From Tetrahymena thermophila SB210 (Eukaryota; Ciliophora; Oligohymenophorea; Hymenostomatida; Tetrahymenidae): DNA of 64,000 nt. This document shows positions 776-21,481 of this stretch, one piece after another. The notes under the pieces are model-generated. The model saw only the letters and a list, made by a program, of their open reading frames with translations, was not told the DNA's origin and did not search any database. The stretch's first letter is position 1; each line of letters starts with the position of its first letter. The stretch lies in assembly GCF_000189635.1 (NCBI RefSeq), contig NW_002476379.1, forward strand, positions 248,001-312,000, read 5' to 3'. The position numbers and the translations under genes were made by a program.

Positions 776-2320
776 ATGTTATCAATCTAACTTTTAAAAT
801 AAATAGGGAATACCTCCTTTTATGAAATTTAACTATTAGATAAAATTTAGATAAAAGCTTATATTACAAAATAAGAAATTTATAATGTAGCAACTTATTA
901 CTAAGATTTGAATTTATCATAATAGACTAGTGAAGATATGAACTTAGCAAAAATACCTATTTAAGGTTAAATTTTTTTAATATTAAACAATATCATTGAT
1001 TGGAGGAAGGTATAAATAAATGCGCTATTAGAAATAATAGAATAAGGTGCTTAAGATGAATTTTAGTTCTTGAATAGATGTTTGATAAAAAAAATGACAG
1101 AAGACATAGATGAGCTTATATAATAAGCAATCAATTTCAAAAGTGAAAATAAATTTATCAATTTGTAGAAGGATATTTTGCTCTTTTATCTATACAATCA
1201 GAGTTAATAGTATGAAATTTCTTTAAAAACTATCTTGAGCATAATTTCTTAACTTGAATAGAATAAAAAGGAAAATAATTTTTTATTTTACCTTTTTAAT
1301 TGCTACGTTAATTCAAGTACATTATTGAGCTTGCATGGTAAGAGAGACGAGGCAATAGAAAACCTAAAGAAGTCTAATTCTTTGCTTACAAATATTTTTT
1401 AAGGAGAAGAATTAAGTCTGTATAAATAAATTGTTAATATAAATTTAGCTAATATTAAACAGGATCTCTTTGAGTTTACAGAGGCTTAAGACATATTAAA
1501 TTAATGTCTAAGAGATATGGCTGAAATATAAGATAAATTTCCATATAAATCATAACGTTTGATTGCATAAATACACAACAATTTGAGTACTAGCTATTAA
1601 TAAGAAGGAGATGAAAAACTTGATAAGAGTTTAGAACATTCACTTATTTCTCTCTAAATGAATGAAGCTTACTTTGGTAATTAATATAATAGTGAAATAG
1701 CAAAAAATTTGATGAATATTAGTAGCATTTACAAGGACTTACAAATGTTTGATTAGGCTATCAGCTATTCCTTAAAAGCTGAGGAAATATTTTAAAAACT
1801 AAATGATAAAGAAAATTTACCAATATGCTTAGGAATGATTGCTTCAATTTACTAAGATGAAGATATTGCTGATTATTAAAAAGCTCTCGAATATTCTTAA
1901 AAATGTGTTGCCTCTTTAGAAAAATATGGAAAGAAAAATACTATTGATTTTGCAATAGCTTTGCACTCATTAAGTAGAATACTTCACTCGTTAGGGCAGT
2001 TTGAAGAGAGTTTAAAAAAGTGTAGCTAAGCTCTTCTTCTCTTTTAAGAAATGAATGAAGAACAAGGCTAAACTTAAAGTTTTGAATTAATCAGTAAGAT
2101 TTATAAATCATTAAATAACTTGGATTTAGCTATTGACAACCTGTATGATGCAATCTAAATAAGATAAAAGTTAGATAAAGATAATCCCACAGAAGAACTT
2201 TTGTTAGACTACCAAGATATAGCTTTAATGTGGGAAGAAAAAGGAGATACTCAAGAGTCTAACTACTATATCAGTAAAGCAAAAAAACTTGAAAAGTTGC
2301 TTAAAATTTAAGAAAACTGA
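776..2320 (+). CDS. TPR-repeat protein, single exon, 514 aa
   Basis: There is one uninterrupted frame from ATG 776 to TGA 2318-2320 under the UAA/UAG=Gln code. The protein is helical, with repeated units of tetratricopeptide type. Examples are GKRDEAIENLKKS near residue 188, the unit around MFDQAISYSLKAEEIF (about 320-345), the next unit with QKALEYSQKCV (about 365-390), GQFEESLKKCSQALLLF (about 410-430), and a unit with NLDLAIDNLYDAI (about 450-470). Alternating small and large residues (A-x-x-x-A/S, Y/F) match the helix A/helix B packing of TPRs. Such proteins are protein-binding scaffolds; the partner cannot be told from sequence. An internal ATG at 938 is an alternative start, but the frame upstream is clearly coding. 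Confidence 0.85.
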
Positions 2321-2691
2321 ATTTTTTAATTCTAAAATTGAATTTTGTAAATTAAAAAAATATTTTATAAATGTAAATAGAGCAAATTTATCAATGTTTG
2401 TTTATTATTTTCAGTGGTGAAATTTCTCATTTCAATTAATAATTATTAATTTTTAGATCTTCAGTTTAATGATCAATAGGAATTTTAGGGAGAATGCTTC
2501 TTTGAAATTCCTATAATGATCCCACTTTAATATTCAAATATAAGCAAAATATATTTCTAATCTTATTTAAAAAAATGAATTTCCAGAATTGATTAATGAA
2601 TTTGAAACTAATTATATGTTAACAATTATATTAACAATTATAATATAATTGCTAAATTTTGAAAAATTAATTTAAAATTTATTTGAAGATT
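2321..2691. other. Intergenic spacer
   Basis: AT-rich sequence between two tandem plus-strand genes, presumably the 3' UTR of the TPR gene and the promoter of the next gene. Nothing else is visible. Confidence 0.5.
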
Positions 2692-3168
2692 ATGTTGCAA
2701 TAAAAGGCTTAAATAGAAATTTAAATGAAGTCTATATTTTAAAACACTTCAGATTTACTGAGAGATGTTAAAATGAGCGATTTAAAAAAGTAAAAATTAG
2801 AAAAGTGTGAGTCTTTAGATATGATAGCAGGAATTATTTACTGTTTAAAAGACATACCTCCACTTAACTTAAACTATTTGGATAATAATTAAGATTTAAA
2901 ATATATTAATGAATACGTGACATTTAAGATTATGGAAAGCTTTAGCGCATTTAATGCTACAGTCTTGAATTATTACAATCTAATTAAATATGTAAAAGAT
3001 GATACTTTTCTCAAATAAGCTGAAAGAATATATAAAATATATGAAAATCCTCATTTAAATACTTCTTTTGTTTAGTCTTTTAAACCTGTTGAAGCTTTTT
3101 TATATTCTCTTTTTAAAGATATGATATAGTATTACAGATTATAAAAGCAATATAATCTTTTAGTTTGA
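2692..3168 (+). CDS. Small unknown helical protein, 158 aa
   Basis: A single exon runs from ATG 2692 (a second in-frame ATG is at 2725) to TGA 3166-3168. The product is predicted helical with an aromatic-rich C-terminal half (FKIMESFSAFNATVLNYYN). There is no signal peptide, transmembrane segment or recognised domain. Codon composition (lower AT than the flanks, frequent TAA/TAG Gln codons) supports it as a real gene. It lies downstream of the TPR gene on the same strand with its own spacer. Confidence 0.65.
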
Positions 3169-4325
3169 GCTATAAATTAAGCAAACAATTAAATTTATTT
3201 TACTTTCTTTTATTTGTTAATCAGTTATTTGATCTATTTTTTTATTTGTGAAAATATTTTAAAGGTTCATTTGAAAGTTGTTTTTAAGTTTTCTAAATGT
3301 CATATATGAAATTTAAATTATAGAAAAATAAAAATTTTCTTTTATTTTGATATTAATAAAACATTTTAATTTATATTTTAAATTAAAAAAGTCAATTAAA
3401 TATTGTTATCAAATTTAATAAAAAATAAAAATAGCTTTTTGAAAATAAAAATTAAAAAGTCTAAACAATTAAATCTAATTAAAAATGTAGAAATCTTAGA
3501 TTTCTAATAATAAAATGGATGAAAGACCACTGAAAAAAAGACAAAAAAATCTAAAATTGGAATAATGAGTTATGTATTTGCAAATAAAATTTTGATCTAA
3601 TGAAAATAAATTTAGAATAGAATTCTTTTTGTTTTTGAGATTAAGAAATAATTTAAAAAATAAATAAATAGTTTTCTGTTTTATTTAAAATGAGGTAATT
3701 ATTTATTATGCTAATTTTTAATGCCAAAGGTTTGTTACTCATAATGTAGAAAGAAAATAACTCTTTAATAGGATATAGACAAATAAATTTATAGAATATT
3801 TTTAGTAGAAAACAAAAATGGTGTTGCTTTTATAATTGTAGATGTTGATTATTAATTAGTGATTTGAATATAGAAGGATTTTATTTAATTATATTAAACA
3901 TAGAAAAAAGTTGAAGGGAAAGAGGAAATGATATTTTATTTATAACTCAAAGATATTTGTTAAAATAGAAGAATTTCTTAATATAAATGAATGTATATAT
4001 GTATACAGTTTTTCAAAGATGGATTTTTTTAATTATTTCTATCTATAAATATAAACTTATTGTTTTATATAATTATTTTTTTTGTTTATATACTTTTTTG
4101 TAAAATATAAATATATAAATATTCTCTTTCAATTCCATTTAGATACTTTTTTTTTTTGTAAAGCTTTATTTTATCTGCTATGAATGTATACATAAGATAT
4201 CTAAACTTGCTTCTTTAAGTTGCTTAATTATGTTCTAGGTTAGCATATTTTAATGCTTGAAATTTTCAAATTTCTTTATTATGAAAAGGAATCAAAAGAG
4301 ATGAGGAAGTTTTTCTCTCTTACTC
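3169..4325. other. Intergenic region with one doubtful short ORF
   Basis: About 1.1 kb of A/T-dominated sequence lies between a plus-strand gene and the convergent PX gene. The only protein-like stretch is the short frame at 3721-3867, listed separately. T-runs near 4150 are consistent with 3' UTR sequence. Confidence 0.5.
3721..3867 (+). CDS. Possible micro-ORF, 48 aa
   Basis: ATG 3721 opens a 48-codon frame ending at TGA 3865-3867. It has a locally protein-like composition (a hydrophobic strand FLVENKNGVAFIIVDVDY) and two early cysteines. It could be spliced onward: GT at about 3840 with AG at about 3876 keeps a frame open. No family is recognised. It may be chance in AT-rich DNA. Confidence 0.2.
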
Positions 4326-6294
4326 TCAAATACTTATCTCTGTGAAATTTTAGAAAAGCTCTGAATTTGATATGACTGGTATGTTCTTCAATTCAGTGAG
4401 GTACTTAGCTAAGTTTTGCTTTCTAAAGTCTACTAAATTTTAAGAGTTTTTGGGCTTGTAAGGCAATTGAGGTAATAGGTTTACTAAGTTACTCTTCTTT
4501 AATTAGCTCTTCATCTAAAATAAAAAATAAATAATTTAGTTCTATACCAAAATTAATTTTGTGTAATAGAAAGTATACACAAAGTGTAAATTAAAAAAAA
4601 ATAAATTAAATAGATACTGTTAAGTGGAATTCCTTAAAGTCATTGTATCTCTTATCAATGTTGTGCAATTATTTTCCATTTTTGAAGAATAAAATTTCAT
4701 AGAACTATTTTAAATTAAGATTAATATTGAAATATTTTATTATTAAGTAAATTACTGTTTTTCCATTGATTTCTTTGTGTTAGTTAATTATAATTTTTAA
4801 CTCATCAGATACACCAGTGTTTTATTTCTTAAAGACATTTTCAGCTGACTCATTTTGTTGGGAGAAAGAAAATGCTTCATCTCTTTGGGCGTTTGTGTTC
4901 TTACTTTTTGGTTGAGTTTCTATTTAGCTGTTGCTTAAAAGAGTATTTCCCCTCAATGATATTCTTTATTTTGAGGTATTATTTTGTAAAATACTTCCGT
5001 ATTCTTAGCCATCGCTATGAGTTGATCCTTATCTTTCTTCTTGATCATAGCCAGAATCAAAAGATGCTTATTCTGATTAAGTAAATAAAGATTCTTCGTG
5101 AGCTTTTCTTTGACCTGATTGTTCAGCAACACATTTGTCTTATGATTTATTACTGTTATTTTAGATTGTTGAGCTTCTTAATCTTTGAGTTTACAAAGAT
5201 GCTTGTGTTGAATTTGATAAAGTTGATTCTTTAGATTCTTTTCCAACTTCTTTTTTAGCGAAATCTTCAATATTATTTTCGATAAGCAAAAACTGCTTTT
5301 CTTAAATAGATGAGGATACTTCCTTTTGTTGAGTCTCACTTTCTTTAGAAGCTTAAAGGGAATCAGCTTTATCTTCATTAATTATGTAAATTGTATTTGA
5401 TTTTCCCCTGAAGCTTGCATCAGAAGATACTCTCTAGCGGGAAAACTATGAAGGAGAAACAGGCATATTAGTATTTTAAGTTTTTTCATCATTTTTAATC
5501 GAATCAGTTCTTGACATATTTTCAGGAGGTGATTAATTAGAAATGAAAGATTCACTGTCTTCTTCTCTTTTTTCGGAGGGTGGAGCGTAAACAGCTAACT
5601 CAGTGATGGGAAGAAGGAAATTGGTGAATTCTTTGCTTTCAATTTTATTATACTCAATATAATTTAAGAATCTATTATACTTAACTACTTTATCATTCAT
5701 AAAGTTCTTGTCAAGAGTACCAGTTTTTTAGATACGTTAAGGAAGCAAGGGAAGACTGAGAGAAGATCTAAATAACTCTTCACTCATTTTTTTGTTCAAG
5801 TGCTTGAAATCTCTGTGGGTACGATAGGTTCTTAATTTTTTAATACCACGGAAATATTCAATCACAAATTGCATATGTTAGTTTTTAGCTTTGTAGCCAA
5901 CTACCTTGATGTCTCTATAAGCGTACAAATATGTCTTAGGTTCTTCTTCTTGATTTGAAAAAGTGGAGTAATTTACATGTTGGCTAAAGCTGGGAGTGCA
6001 TCTAGCATTCAAAATATCACGAATATCCTAACCATCAGAACGGGTACTAGTATTTAAAGCAGAGGTTTATCTTTTCATGGAAACCTAATCATATTATGAG
6101 CTGTTGCTATTATCAGCTATATTTAAATCTTTGAAGGAATGAGTGTCAGAGAATTACTATTTGCTGTTAATTGATGTTGCAGTGATATTTTGAGTTGCAA
6201 CTTTTTAGCTTTTTATTGAAATAGATTCTTGATCTACTGGTTGCTCTAGAAGATTATTAGTAATAATTTATTATCTATTTTCAACTTATTTCAT
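4326..6294 (-). CDS. Protein with two PX (phox homology) domains, 621 aa
   Basis: Exon 1 is 6294-4618 and exon 2 is 4514-4326, with a 103-nt GT...AG intron and matching phase. PX1 spans about residues 118-228: the R-x-Y/H-x-DF basic motif is seen in RTHRDFKHLNKKM, followed by the P-x-x-P-type loop LSLPLLPQR. A long low-complexity S/Q/E-rich linker follows. PX2 spans about residues 513-621, has RYNDFKEF and a loop LPQLPYKPK, and ends in helices typical of the fold (NLAKYLTELKNIPVIS). The intron falls inside PX2. PX domains bind phosphoinositides, usually PI3P on endosomes, so a membrane-trafficking role is inferred. It is divergent from the ORF at 6389. An unusual feature is a PX at each end and no BAR domain. 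Confidence 0.85.
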
Positions 6295-14953: not shown

Positions 14954-15178
14954 ATGAGTCTCAACTTCACCCACCAAAACTCTTACCAAGAATATATTAA
15001 CAATGTACTTATTAATAATTCTCATTTTAGGTGGAGAACACCAAATTAAAAATATCACTCTGTTCCTTTATTTCCTTTATTTTCTGCTTTCTGCTTGGAA
15101 ATGCGTTAAGGAAATTCAGGAGAAAAATAATATCGAAAATCATGCAATCAACTCTATCCTTTGCTCACATCGAGTTGA
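14954..15178 (+). CDS. Short GC-richer ORF or 5' exon upstream of bZIP gene
   Basis: ATG 14954 opens 74 codons ending at TGA 15176-15178, in a segment noticeably less AT-rich than its flanks. There are three readings: an independent small protein; an upstream ORF in the bZIP leader; or a short first exon (14954-15001, MSLNFTHQNSYQ...) spliced by GT at 15005 or nearby to the TAG just before ATG 15267. A third frame over the same bases also lacks stops. The region is probably transcribed, but its role is open. Confidence 0.35.
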
Positions 15179-15266
15179 GGTTTTACTTTTTATAGAGTTG
15201 ATATGATGCTCGATAATTAATTTAGATTGTAAACTCATTTAAGAATTTATTTTGTCTTATTAGTAG

Positions 15267-18200
15267 ATGTCTAACGAGGTCATGATTAGATAAAAGTATG
15301 AATCTATATCTTAAAGTGAATACTCAAACCCCTTAGGCTCTCATCCCCAACACAATGATAATGTCGAAGACTACCTCAATTTCGGTGACAATATTATGGA
15401 AAATTACGAAAATATACATGGCGTTAAGTAGGAAGATCTAGAATGTGACTTCCTTCAAGGACATGAACATAAAAACTAACAAGGTAAATTCTTTTTTTCT
15501 TTTATTAAACCTGAAAAAATATCTTTGATTTTTCTAATTCATTTAAAAATCGTTTGTAGACTAAAATAACTTAAAATTTTAAAAATAGAAAACGGTATGG
15601 GATTTGAATAAGCCCACCTTCCTTTCATGTCTCACTAATAGAATGGTAGCATAATAGACAATACTAACTTTTTCCTATTCAAGTAGTAATCTATTCCTTA
15701 AAATAATCCTACCTCCTCTCAAGGTTAATAAGCTCCTACTCAATTTGATAGCAGTCAACTCTCTGCCAAAATGAAGAGAATTATGAAAAGAGAAAAGGCT
15801 AAATCTCGCAGAAAAATGAATCTTGAATAATAATAGTAAACTGCAAACAGTCAAGAAACTTAATTCAAGTCATTCATTCCAACTTTGGTACCTTCAGCTC
15901 CTTTAGTTCCTCAATAAAATACAGAAGAGGCTTCTACTTTCAATAAGTCTACAGAATTATCTGGATAACAATAACAAATTGATATGAGAAGCTGCTCCAC
16001 AAGCTGTTCTAGCAATACTGCATAATTCGAAGTAAAGTTAGAATCTTCAAGCTCTGCTGGAAATCAAGCTTCTGCTAATGGAATTAATCCAGCTCATTTA
16101 CTCGAACAAAAGCTGAAAAAAAGCTCAAGTTCTTCCTTAAGTCACGAAGATCTCTAATTAAAGGCTCTTCAATAATGCTAAGGAAGCATGGATCAAAAGT
16201 AATAAAAGAAAGTAATGTAAATGATTCGTAACAGAATATCTGCTTAGAACTCTCGTGATCGTAAGAAAGCCTACATTTCTAAGCTTGAGCAAGATAAGGA
16301 AGATTTCTTACTCGAAAGTATTGAATTGAGATAGTAGTTAAATGAATCTCAAAAAGAAGTTGCCAATGAAAAGAACAAAAATGAACTTCTCTAAAAGGAA
16401 ATCTAAGAATTAAAAAGAAAGCTCTAAAGCTAGTGCAAATGTTTCAACACCAATCCCGATAAAATCGAATCAGCATAAATGAACTAAACAGCTTTAAATT
16501 AAAAATACAGTAATCATCATTCTCTCTAAAAGAACTATGCTGCTTTCAGTGTTGCTTTCTTTGCTGTTTTAGGAGTAGTACTTATCTTCAATATCAAACC
16601 CAGTAAAAATGAACAAGCCATAATAAATTAAAGTAATATTTGATACGATTATTATAAAAATTATTATGAAATATACTAAAAAAACAAAAATAGAACATAA
16701 ATAAATAATTCATTGATATTTTTTCTTAACATATTATTTAAATAAAATTACAGGTTCCTAAATGATGAAAATGTTAGATGATTTATAAAAATCAACCTAA
16801 GATTTCTAAAAGATGAGTTAAATGAGGTAATGCATTAATTGATTATTTATTTTAGCAAATTAGTGTAAAGGCATAAATTCATATATAGTCGATCAATCGG
16901 TTGAAAGAAAAAAAGCATTTATTATAAAATTTAAATTAGTAGGATAATATATAAACTAGATGCTTGTGTTATAGAGGAAATTTGATTAATAAATAGTTAA
17001 TTGAATAAATAAATCATCAGCAAAACATATTAATAATTTTAGCGAAGCATAGAGGAAAATTAAATAAAGAAGAAACAGAGAAAGAAATAAACAAATAAAT
17101 AAATAAAAGATAGATCGATTAACAGAGGAAGACAACTTCCCTTTCAGCAAACAAAAAAAAAATCAAATTAAATTTAATAGGAATTGAATAGCAAATAGTC
17201 TTCAATAAATAAATCAATCAATCTATCAAATAAAATAATCAAACATTATAACATTAATAAAAAAAAGTAATACACTCAAGCAAATATCATTTTCCTTACT
17301 TTTTAAAAATTTGTATTCAAATTAAAAATTTCCTTAATTTACAAAAAGTAATTGTCGATATTTCTCAATACCTCATTTCTAATACACAATTCCTCATTTT
17401 GTCTTGTTTTCTTCAATTAAGAAAAAAAATGCAATTTTTCCCTAATCTCTTAAATCAGAACCTAATCTAAAATAAAATGTGAATTTTAAAATAACAAAAC
17501 AAGATAATTCATAAAAATATCAACACAAGCATATGACTTTAAATAAGAATAAAATCTATTGATCCTATTTTTAACTTTTTGAGAAATTATTTAAAATCAT
17601 TACCTGCATACAGATAGATTAATATATGAAATAAATAAATTATTCTGCAATATTTTTTACTTTTAAATAGATTTTATTTTTAAAAAATAACTAAAAATTT
17701 AAATTTATAAAATAGAAATGAAAAAGATGAAGTTGCTGTTGTTGGAAGTGCCATTTTAAATGAAAAAATGTATTAAAAGAGTGATTCGAAAGGAGAAATC
17801 GGTCTGAACATCGAAAAAGAGCTTAATAATTAAGCTATGGAAGAAGAAGTACCTTTATAAGGTGAAGAAACCCCCTAAATAAACTTAAATATGCTGACAA
17901 AGTAAAATATAACAATTATTTTTAAATTTTGTTAGTAATCTAAGATAAATTTAAAAGAAATTGAAAAGAAAACAATTAAAAGTTATTAATCTTTGTTATA
18001 AAAATATCCTTCGATTTAAGAAAAAAGAAAAAAAGATTCAATTAACTATCTTTCTATTTCTCAAATATATTATTTTTATTACAGAAATTTAGAAAAAAAA
18101 ATAATCTAAAAGAAATTTGTAAATTTTAGAATAATAATAATAAATTAAATTTTCTTTATACAAATTTATCTTAACTTACTTTTATACTTTTAACTATTCA

Positions 18201-18447
18201 AATTAACAACAAACAATTAATTTTTATCTTATCAGAAACTAATTATATTTCTATTCAAAATAGATCAGATCAAATACAAAAGGGCTAATGGATTCAATTT
18301 ATGGTCCCTAAATAAGAAAATAGCTTAAGGGATGATGTTAGCAGAGATAGCGCTGAAACAGACGTTACTCATACCAATAACAATTAAAAATATTTGCAAG
18401 TTTGGGCTTAAATTAAATCAGTCAACGAATTCGAATAAATCGTTTGA
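15267..18447 (+). CDS. Membrane-anchored bZIP transcription factor, 567 aa
   Basis: There are five exons: 15267-15483, 15589-16632, 16754-16826, 17716-17901 and 18264-18447. All junctions are GT...AG with compatible phases (1704 nt in all). Residues 1-270 are Q/S/N-rich, a likely activation region. The basic region at about 280-300 reads MIRNRISAQNSRDRKKAY, with the invariant N287-x7-R295, and closely parallels the ATF6/CREB basic region. A leucine-zipper-like coiled coil extends to about 350. A hydrophobic helix at about 388-409 (NYAAFSVAFFAVLGVVLIF) follows and fits a single transmembrane span. The C-terminal 158 residues would then be lumenal. This is the layout of ER-tethered factors (ATF6, CREB3, plant bZIP17/28), released by proteolysis on ER stress. 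If exon 2 is not spliced at 16632, a TGA at 16641 would end the protein right after the anchor. The 889-nt intron is unusually long here. Confidence 0.85.
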
Positions 18448-19950
18448 TTTGCTTTGAAGATTTAGATTAATAAAGAAATAAATAAATAAATATATTGAAT
18501 CTTTATTTTGCAATATAAATAAAAAACACCTCTTCTAAATTTATTAATTTTTAAAAAATGCAAATGAAAAGATGAAATATTTTTATAATAACATTTTAAT
18601 AATCATGATAATAATTATAAATTCAAAAAACTATTCACAGCCCAAATATATAACAAAATACCTACCTATTACTCTCCTACTTATTAATAATTATAAAATT
18701 TACTTGATATAATATCATAATTAAAAAACAAGTCTAAAATCAACTCTTACCTTATATTTTTTGACATAAGAAATCTTAAAAAAAATTATCAATCTTGCTT
18801 ATAAATATATTTTATGCAAATAAAATATTAATTAGCAAGTGATGGCTAATTTATATAATTTTATTTACTAATAAATTATTTAAACATTGATTTATTTAAA
18901 TATTTGTACTGTTTGTTTATCAATTTTATTTGTATTTTAAGCAATTAAAAATATTTATTCATTAGAAATTCTCACTTTCTTTATTTTATTTTAATTTTAT
19001 AATTTTCTATTACAAAAACCTTTAAAATTTTAACTGAATAATTTTCCAAAGTAAATTATTTGAACATAAAAGTGTTAAGAATCCTTTAATTTATGGAAAA
19101 TACAAATATGTAATTTTCTAATGAAAATTAAAGTATCTTTTTGGTTAAATAATTTGTTTAATTTTTGATTAATTAATTTATAAATAATTTAAGATTTATA
19201 CTTTTTAAATTCCATCATAAATTATTTAAATTTTCTTCGTAAATTGAAATTTATCAATTAAGAAATGTATTATACTATTAATATTCTGATCAATCAATTA
19301 TAAATACTTAGCTTCGCTATTTTTTAGGTATTATTTCATTTAGAGCTTTTTTATAATAAAAATACTAAAGTTGTAGAAAATACAACAAAAATGATAATTT
19401 TTTTTAAAAATGTTAAATCTTAATGTAAAAAAATATTTAGAATTTAAAAATCAAATATTTTTAATCTATAAAATAAAAATGATTATTTAAAAAACTATTC
19501 ATTATTTGCGGTTATTGTTAATGAGAAAAAACTTTGACATACAATTTAAATAAAAAATGTTGTTAAAAATAGTAATTTCCTATTTTCTTTAAAAAAATAA
19601 TTTCCAAATTTATTTTATTTTTTACTTTATAATTTCATAATTATTTGAAGATTTTAATTTAATTTAGTTTTTTATTTTTCATTTATTTAAAAAGTAGCCA
19701 TTTTTATTTAGCTAATTATCTAAATTCAACAAATAAATATAATTAATGATGCATTTTCAACTATATTAAATTTAGATAATAAAATATCTTTTAAAGGTAA
19801 TTTTTGCTATTTTACACTAAATTTTAGTCTGAAATGATGATATTCTAGCTAATTAGCTAAAAATTTAATTTATTAATTTTTAATTTGCATAATAAATAAT
19901 TATAAATTTTAAATACTTATCAATTAATTAGCTTATTTATAGATATTGAG
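18448..19950. other. AT-rich intergenic region
   Basis: About 1.5 kb between two plus-strand genes, almost entirely A/T with scattered poly-A and poly-T. No coding frame, RNA or repeat of note is visible. Confidence 0.6.
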
Positions 19951-21481
19951 ATGAGCTTTATAGAAAAAATAGAATATGAAATTGAAAAATATTTCCACTC
20001 AAGTGGTGTAAAAGAAGGATTCGAAACTCTTTAAAATGATTTTAAATAATATACTCTTGAGAAAAATACCTAATTCTAAGATATTAGGAAACACTTAGAG
20101 ACTCTTTAATAAGAGAGCTTATAAACAGAAATTAAGATAGTCACTGAGAATTAAATAAAAGATGCTTGCTTTCTGTATATAGATGGAATTAGCCTTATAG
20201 GAGTAGTGAGTAAAAATTAAATTTATGTCTTCTATTCAAGTGATTCAGCTTCTTCAAACATAAATTTAATGTCTTAGCATACTATTTAATTTAACATAAG
20301 CGATAATCCCTATTAGTACTAAAGTTATCCAAAGAGCAAGTAAAAAATAGTTAATTTCGTTAAAGGCTACAGAGAAAGCGTATTTCCTAAAACAGAAGAG
20401 GATTTATATTCTTGCGATTTCTTCGATTTGCATTTAGAAAAAAATATTTACACTGGAGTTATTGCAGGAGGGATGACAGGTTTCATACACTTTGTTGACA
20501 TTTAAAGTTCTACCAATTAAATTTGCTTTTAGGTGCATGGAGATACAATTTTTGATATCAAATGCTTAAATAGAAATTAGTCATGCTAAGATTACAAAAA
20601 TATAGTTGTTAGTGCAAGTAAAGATGGTTCAATTTTTCTTTCTCATTTGGCTAAATAAGAAAAACTTATTTAGCTTAAAGATTTTTTATCTACTTCTCCT
20701 ATGTCACAATTTACGTGCATTGACATTGACTTAGCTTGCGAAAATATATTTTCCGCTTGTGGAGATGGAACAATTTAAGTTTGGCAGCTATCAGAATAAA
20801 TAAAGAAAATTTTGCTTCTAAAAACTCCTGTGAATAACTTTGTAAAGATTGAAAAATCTCAATACAATTACTAGGTATAAGCTTAAGAAGATATTATGCA
20901 TACAGTTCAGGTCACTTAGTGTAGTTTTTATGGAAAGTATTTACTTTATCTTAATAGCTAAGGATATATTACTCTCGGAACATTTATTGAACCATATGTT
21001 TACAAAGCTTAGTATCGCATGAGGAAGTTCGACAAAGACAACACTGGTGTAAATTTCATATGATTAAAATGAAAATAAAAAATTTTAAATATTTTAATTT
21101 ATTTTTTTAAAAGAAAAATCTGAAGTTTTTTCAAATTACTAATTTTGATTTAGGCTCGAAAGTAGAAAACTATAACAAAGTCATGCATGTAGACTAAAAA
21201 AATGGTCTTGTATGGATAGGTATTTACTTCCTCTTAAAGTAAAAATGTTAAGTTTTTAATTAAAATAAAATTTAGGAAAACAATAGTCAATTTTTTGCTT
21301 TGACTTAAAAGATAGAAGGAACTCCGAAATCGATTACAATTATAGCAAGCCTTTGATTGCTTACAATACTTTTATCAAGGCTAACATTTAGAAGATATTT
21401 TTTAATGAAAATTACTCAGTTCTGTATATTCTTACTGATGCAAAATAGCTAATTAAATTCTCATTTATACCTAATAAGTGA
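19951..21481 (+). CDS. WD40-repeat protein, ESC/EED-like candidate, 455 aa
   Basis: Exons are 19951-21046, 21154-21219 and 21276-21481, with phases consistent. Several degenerate WD40 blades are visible: HGDTIFDIKCL...VVSASKDGSIFLSHL, then FTCIDIDL...FSACGDGTIQVWQL, then MHTVQVTQCSFYGKYLLYLNS, and a last blade containing VWIGKQQSIFCFDLKD. The order resembles the Polycomb subunit EED/ESC, where a blade reads 'H..YVDCV.F.GDLILSKS' and the last blade 'GN..GKLYVWDLE'. If so it would read histone H3 trimethyl-lysine in a PRC2-type complex, known in ciliates for heterochromatin and DNA elimination. The match is by eye; any other seven-blade scaffold remains possible. It is convergent with the next gene, with 87 nt between stop codons. 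Confidence 0.75.

Follow-up and report, generated by a model that had tools for sequence, protein, structure and literature searches.

Membrane-held bZIP stress sensors are known in animals and plants. The question raised here is whether a gene in a 64,000-nucleotide stretch of the Tetrahymena thermophila SB210 genome (the window) encodes a ciliate factor of similar build, with a DNA-binding region, a membrane anchor and a tail beyond the membrane, and what such a protein might do in the cell.

Gene model and protein anatomy

A model of six exons, all on the forward strand, translates letter for letter into P0002, a deposited T. thermophila SB210 protein of 584 aa named "BZIP transcription factor family protein." A sequence-only reading of the locus had started the gene at 15267 and joined five exons. 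Its spliced product of 567 aa is identical to the matching part of P0002, and the start moves to the deposited position, 14954, because an exon overlooked in that reading (exon 1, 14954..15004; 51 nt) codes 17 further residues at the 5' end, which are nearly identical in the T. malaccensis protein. Exons 2 (15267..15483) and 3 (15589..16632), previously counted as exons 1 and 2, follow, and exon 3 carries the remaining N-terminal region, the bZIP and a hydrophobic span. The spliced tail begins in exon 4 (16754..16826), runs through exon 5 (17716..17901) and ends in exon 6 (18264..18447) with the stop TGA at 18445-18447; these exons, previously 3-5, have the backing of both the T. malaccensis protein and a profile of ciliate tails. 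Farther downstream, an ORF at 19750-21063 on the same strand has weak WD40 matches, every one below its cut-off.

The five introns would have different effects if retained. Intron 1 (15005-15266; 262 nt) would bring an in-frame TGA after 171 nt. Intron 2 (15484..15588) has 105 nt, a multiple of three, and no in-frame TGA, and its retention would lengthen the protein without introducing a stop; intron 5 (17902-18263; 362 nt) likewise has no in-frame stop. The GT donor at 16633, the 121-nt intron 3 (16633..16753) and the three phase-compatible exons behind it are all present as had been described. Retained, this intron would end the tail at a TGA (16641-16643) that is indeed in frame, lying 8 nt past the donor rather than the 10 nt first given. 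Intron 4 (16827-17715; 889 nt) would supply an in-frame TGA after 13 nt.

The basic region, the zipper helix and one hydrophobic span, all read from the DNA at the outset, are found in the spliced protein. PF00170 scores 32.1 bits in P0002 against a cut-off of 27.6, with the domain at 16194..16382 and its core reading MIRNRISAQNSR; Pfam returns bZIP models and one sub-threshold match, nothing more, leaving the tail unrecognized. Upstream of the bZIP lies a conserved basic segment, MKREKAK (15783..15803), predicted to be helical. The span, AAFSVAFFAVLGVVLIFNI (16539..16595), also a predicted helix, has a KD of 2.48 versus 0.40 for the best other non-overlapping segment of the 567-aa model, and a single predicted span after the zipper is what a membrane-tethered bZIP would have. 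Beyond it the tail of P0002 comprises 159 residues. Between zipper and span, 42 of the 71 span-bearing relatives described below have a juxtamembrane CxxC, where Tetrahymena has CKC (16434..16442); the CxxC of the relatives may serve the dimer as a metal clasp.

In the structure predicted for P0002, the bZIP forms a long helix (block means of 88-96 across residues 291-370), the span is helical as well, a further helix follows, and two strands lie close to the C-terminus. The first strand, WIQFMVP (18289..18309), also coincides with a motif of the relatives, and the second, YLQVWAQ (18391..18411), has its alanine at the position of a cysteine in 21 of 25 intact tails. The bZIP helix, span helix and two late strands are likewise present in the model of a relative, P0013. 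Confidence in the predicted tail is low, with a mean pLDDT of about 53 for whole models (53.5 for P0002), and when the P0013 model was compared with PDB folds, 14 matches came up at E <= 10 and none at E <= 0.001. By profile, 25 relatives find their best PDB match in 6iak_A (E 4.4e-9), which we take to be of CREB3 type (the entry name itself reads "Uncharacterized protein"), and chains of ATF-2, Jun and CREB match more weakly. Two Rad50 hook chains also appear in that list (E about 0.005), perhaps through a chance coiled-coil likeness.

As to topology, the mean net charge is +1.12 over the 15 residues preceding the span and 0.00 after it in 25 proteins chosen for an intact tail, a difference that fits a cytosolic N-terminus. 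Glycosylation sites lend no support to a lumenal tail, since sequons are not enriched there: in 12 representatives, 28 were observed in the tails versus 25.7 expected, and 29 versus 33.6 in the N-terminal parts. A single IRE1-type CNGCNG site occurs on the strand of the gene, at 16054, away from the span.

Ciliate relatives and the conserved tail

Whether the tail belongs to the bZIP gene can be judged from its relatives. A protein search returned 19 proteins at E <= 0.001 (P0002-P0020), and a profile search, in which scoring was limited to the 7991 candidates with the most shared words, returned 99 relatives at E <= 0.01. Organisms named among the latter are Tetrahymena, Paramecium and, at the weak end, one fungus with a single protein (P0099); many of the 99 come from contigs about 1.3 to 2.2 kb long. 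The bZIP core is found in 97 of them, and in 71 the bZIP is followed by a span with a KD of at least 1.4. Among these 71, tails of at least 110 residues occur in 29 (25 with the motif at the tail's end, which make up alignment A3, and 4 without), tails of 82-93 residues in 10 and tails under 70 residues in 32; the short-tailed relatives could be unspliced gene predictions or genuine short forms. P0082-P0094 are mostly a Paramecium side group with a bZIP, a span and a tail of about 82 residues from which the family's end is missing, and one protein in this range, P0084, has no clear span.

P0002 and its T. malaccensis counterpart are 95% identical, tail included. Against a profile of 23 tails that holds no Tetrahymena sequence, the part encoded by exons 4-6 scores 31 bits, which 0 of 5000 shuffles reach, and because such a profile recognizes these exons, the tail is part of the bZIP gene, as had been proposed. 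Other ciliates have both span and tail, and we define the ciliate tailed bZIP family by this homologous tail after the span. That the gene is real and a member of a ciliate bZIP family with a conserved tail is well supported.

The 25 tails have a common order of motifs, FCP, (W)LQLxIPK and, near the end, EVWCKV. FCP occurs in 23 of them, the second cysteine in 21; in all 10 intact Paramecium proteins these are the only lumenal cysteines, and the two Tetrahymena proteins have no tail cysteine, with FCP and the second Cys both missing. Retention of the pair in most tails and its absence from Tetrahymena suggest a tail disulfide since lost in that genus. Conservation of the full tail, for its part, argues for a functional tailed form.

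These results bear on two other accounts of the last three exons. If they formed a separate downstream gene, the bZIP protein would end at TGA 16641; that stop is in frame, and the 889-nt intron falls between two of the exons. Against this, the deposited and T. malaccensis proteins join these exons, and other ciliates carry homologous tails on the same bZIP. Given the T. malaccensis junction and the 31 bits of the tail profile, we reject a separate gene as having almost no chance of being right. The other account, raised when the gene was first read, is that of two isoforms, one spliced, with anchor and tail, and one in which the 121-nt intron is kept, with anchor and short tail, the two serving to switch a sensor on or off. 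A TGA as close to the donor arises in 2.5% of intron shuffles, which is weak evidence in its favor, and the 32 span-bearing relatives with tails under 70 residues are perhaps such forms or unspliced predictions. The early stop is, however, not special to this intron, because the 889-nt intron gives one too (offset 13), and such stops may simply direct unspliced transcripts to decay; ciliate introns are known to be under selection for stops. We would be surprised if two isoforms were made.

Other T. thermophila bZIP ORFs also carry hydrophobic stretches. A second bZIP, L025 (contig C344, ORF 1084-2625, minus strand), has PF07716 over its cut-off, a CxxC, a span of KD 2.49 and a tail whose ICP and LTC cysteines resemble, by eye, those of the family's tail. 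It scores 5.7 bits against the tail profile (E 0.00068 for a single target), mostly on the span, and 2.3 bits over the last 91 positions. L026 (C308, ORF 3490-4191, plus strand) is a bZIP with two hydrophobic stretches that scores 8.0 bits (E 0.00014 for a single target), on the span. A third bZIP, L027 (C242, ORF 1911-4589, minus strand), has a CxxC, a span of KD 1.93 and a long, Q/N-rich tail ending near YIKFQCKFVDSN; its score against the tail profiles is negative.

TthebZIP1 compared with animal and plant sensors

De Francisco et al. 2018 (PMC6205968) described TthebZIP1 as a protein of 66.9 kDa with coiled coils at 144-178 and 319-374, and a T. malaccensis counterpart of 95% identity with coiled coils at 145-179 and 321-376. 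The calculated mass of P0002 is 67.0 kDa, and the published coordinates hit the same segments in P0002 and P0003. Because mass and coiled-coil coordinates agree, we take this gene to be TthebZIP1, for which no accession was found in the main text of that paper. TthebZIP1 is treated there as an AP-1 factor whose mRNA rises most with Cd, next with Pb and then with Cu, and the terms "transmembrane," "ATF6," "endoplasmic reticulum" and "CREB3" have no occurrence in the main text (PMC6205968). The same paper reports nuclear proteins of 30-57, 57-93 and 93-116 kDa that bind MTCM1, an AP-1-like motif, and leaves them without identity. Residues 1-406 have a calculated mass of 46.7 kDa, inside the 30-57 kDa range, and the full-length protein falls in that of 57-93 kDa; such a fragment is compatible with the 30-57 kDa band, which is not evidence of identity.

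Among the literature matches listed, which comprise titles and abstract starts and have most subscription journals outside their scope, there is no ciliate membrane bZIP. A paper on the ciliate Cryptocaryon mentions ATF6 within a general ER-stress scheme (PMC10428556), and a review of Dictyostelium states that an ATF6 orthologue could not be identified there (PMC6025073). A bZIP phylogeny groups the animal OASIS-ATF6, fungal HAC1, plant proto-B and heterokont bZIPs together, and its main text nowhere names ciliates, Tetrahymena or Paramecium (PMC4736632).

The architecture had been said to equal that of proteolysis-activated ER-stress sensors. The likeness holds for the bZIP, the one span and the spliced, conserved tail, a layout like that of ATF6, CREB3 and bZIP28, but equality goes too far: the Tetrahymena tail has neither RxxL nor cysteine, and a six-frame search of the genome yielded no S1P- or S2P-type protease match. 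Like animal CREB3/OASIS, the ciliate proteins have one span and a tail behind a bZIP core, which by profile is nearest 6iak_A, presumably of CREB3 type; unlike them, Tetrahymena has a tail free of RxxL S1P-type sites and of anything that Pfam finds. With animal ATF6 they would share the type II arrangement of a bZIP with a lumenal tail, and their last hairpin is weakly like an ATF6 stretch ending MMQIDCQVMDTRIL. In 21 of 25 an Asn also sits close to where the span ends on its far side, and in 13 of 25 that stretch contains an Asn with a Pro within the next five residues. S1P/S2P matches are, again, lacking in that genome search. P0100, presumably a plant-like sequence and the only one found, shows no significant match to the tail profiles. 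Plant bZIP17 and bZIP28 are also membrane bZIPs with a lumenal tail and are freed by intramembrane proteolysis (PMC9237531), and the title of a work cited in that paper calls Asn-Pro important for S2P cleavage of SREBP.

The ATF6 likeness of the last hairpin was first noticed by eye, and the stretch with that ending is the best match of the ciliate profile on gorilla ATF6. A profile of the last 91 positions gives 5.7 bits against ATF6, a score reached by 32 of 10000 ATF6 shuffles and an optimistic figure, since the profile was cut after the likeness had been seen. Reversed ATF6 gives 0.1 bits, and in a same-window control with 191 other ORF chunks, one scored 6.1 bits and one 5.4. The whole-tail profile gives 2.2 bits against ATF6 (507 of 10000 shuffles as high), and an ATF6 profile gives at best 2.1 bits against ciliate tails (P0009; -0.3 for P0002). 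The hhalign probability for ciliate tail versus ATF6 is 0.3%, with an ATF6 set that is shallow and mammal-only (37 of 120 fetched sequences fitted the span pattern, and a length filter followed). Homology of the ciliate tail to the ATF6 lumen is thus suggestive and unproven. If the tail were a true but highly diverged relative of that lumen, its cysteine-bearing hairpin would correspond to the ATF6 stretch MMQIDCQVMDTRIL, the sensor would predate the ciliate-animal split, release in ciliates would do without S1P/S2P and fall to an SPP-type protease or a rhomboid, and Tetrahymena would have lost the redox Cys pair; we think this rather unlikely.

A candidate membrane-held switch

Release of the N-terminal part would require a protease. 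The T. thermophila genome (101 Mb, 445 contigs), in which the window occupies C158:248001-312000, was searched with Pfam in six frames without intron handling. S8 (PF00082), Peptidase_M50 (PF02163) and M50B (PF13398) gave no match in this search, which is blind to introns, so that missing S1P and S2P matches do not prove absence; in the controls, 14 prokaryotes, M50 was found in 14, M50B in 6 and S8 in 7. A22B (signal-peptide-peptidase type) has four matches in the genome and rhomboid eleven, two of which, 483 bases apart on the same contig, are perhaps one gene. Of the 19 proteins P0002-P0020, 10 have an RxxL S1P-type site; the P0002 tail has none. The usual S1P/S2P release route appears doubtful in Tetrahymena. 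One IRE1-type RNase domain (Ribonuc_2-5A) was found in the genome by the same search; its IRE1-like locus, L012 (C126:89167-89541, minus strand), has by eye a hydrophobic span and a kinase-like stretch.

We consider it fairly probable that TthebZIP1 is a type II bZIP of the ER or nuclear envelope whose lumenal tail senses and whose N-terminal part is freed by proteolysis; the step from this architecture to a sensor of ER stress is one that we infer. About 400 N-terminal residues (about 47 kDa) would be cytosolic and bind DNA as a coiled-coil dimer, anchored by the one span, with the 159-residue tail in the lumen. Folding or redox stress on the lumenal side, possibly metal-caused, would be the signal that opens the protein to proteolysis, and an intramembrane protease would free the N-terminal part to enter the nucleus. 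In Tetrahymena the releasing protease would likelier be of the A22B type or a rhomboid, because no S1P or S2P was found.

The published view, in which the membrane goes undiscussed, is of a soluble AP-1 factor on metallothionein promoters, and the hydrophobic stretch would then be a buried helix. Induction by Cd and Pb and the nuclear proteins that bind an AP-1-like motif speak for it (PMC6205968), as do the 26 of 99 relatives without a span of KD 1.4. Those motif-bound proteins, however, carry no identity in that paper, metal induction would equally fit an ER-stress factor, the predicted span argues against solubility, and span and tail recur in other ciliates; we leave only a small chance to a soluble factor. 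A membrane-held bZIP might also answer to something other than unfolded protein, such as lipid, sterol, calcium state or nuclear-envelope tethering. The Tetrahymena tail, with no cysteine pair, is in keeping with such a signal, which we think conceivable and rather unlikely. The proteolytic stress sensor remains the reading we prefer.

A published, ordinary stress factor thus looks like a membrane-held switch, with a sensor-like tail common to other ciliates. Its architecture is like that of animal and plant stress sensors, but the ciliate family has its own tail. If S1P and S2P are truly absent, a different release protease would be required. With a ciliate family marked by such a conserved tail, the membrane-bZIP scheme would reach the alveolates, and a published metal-stress factor would take on a new meaning in Tetrahymena, a genetically tractable cell in which these proposals could be tested.
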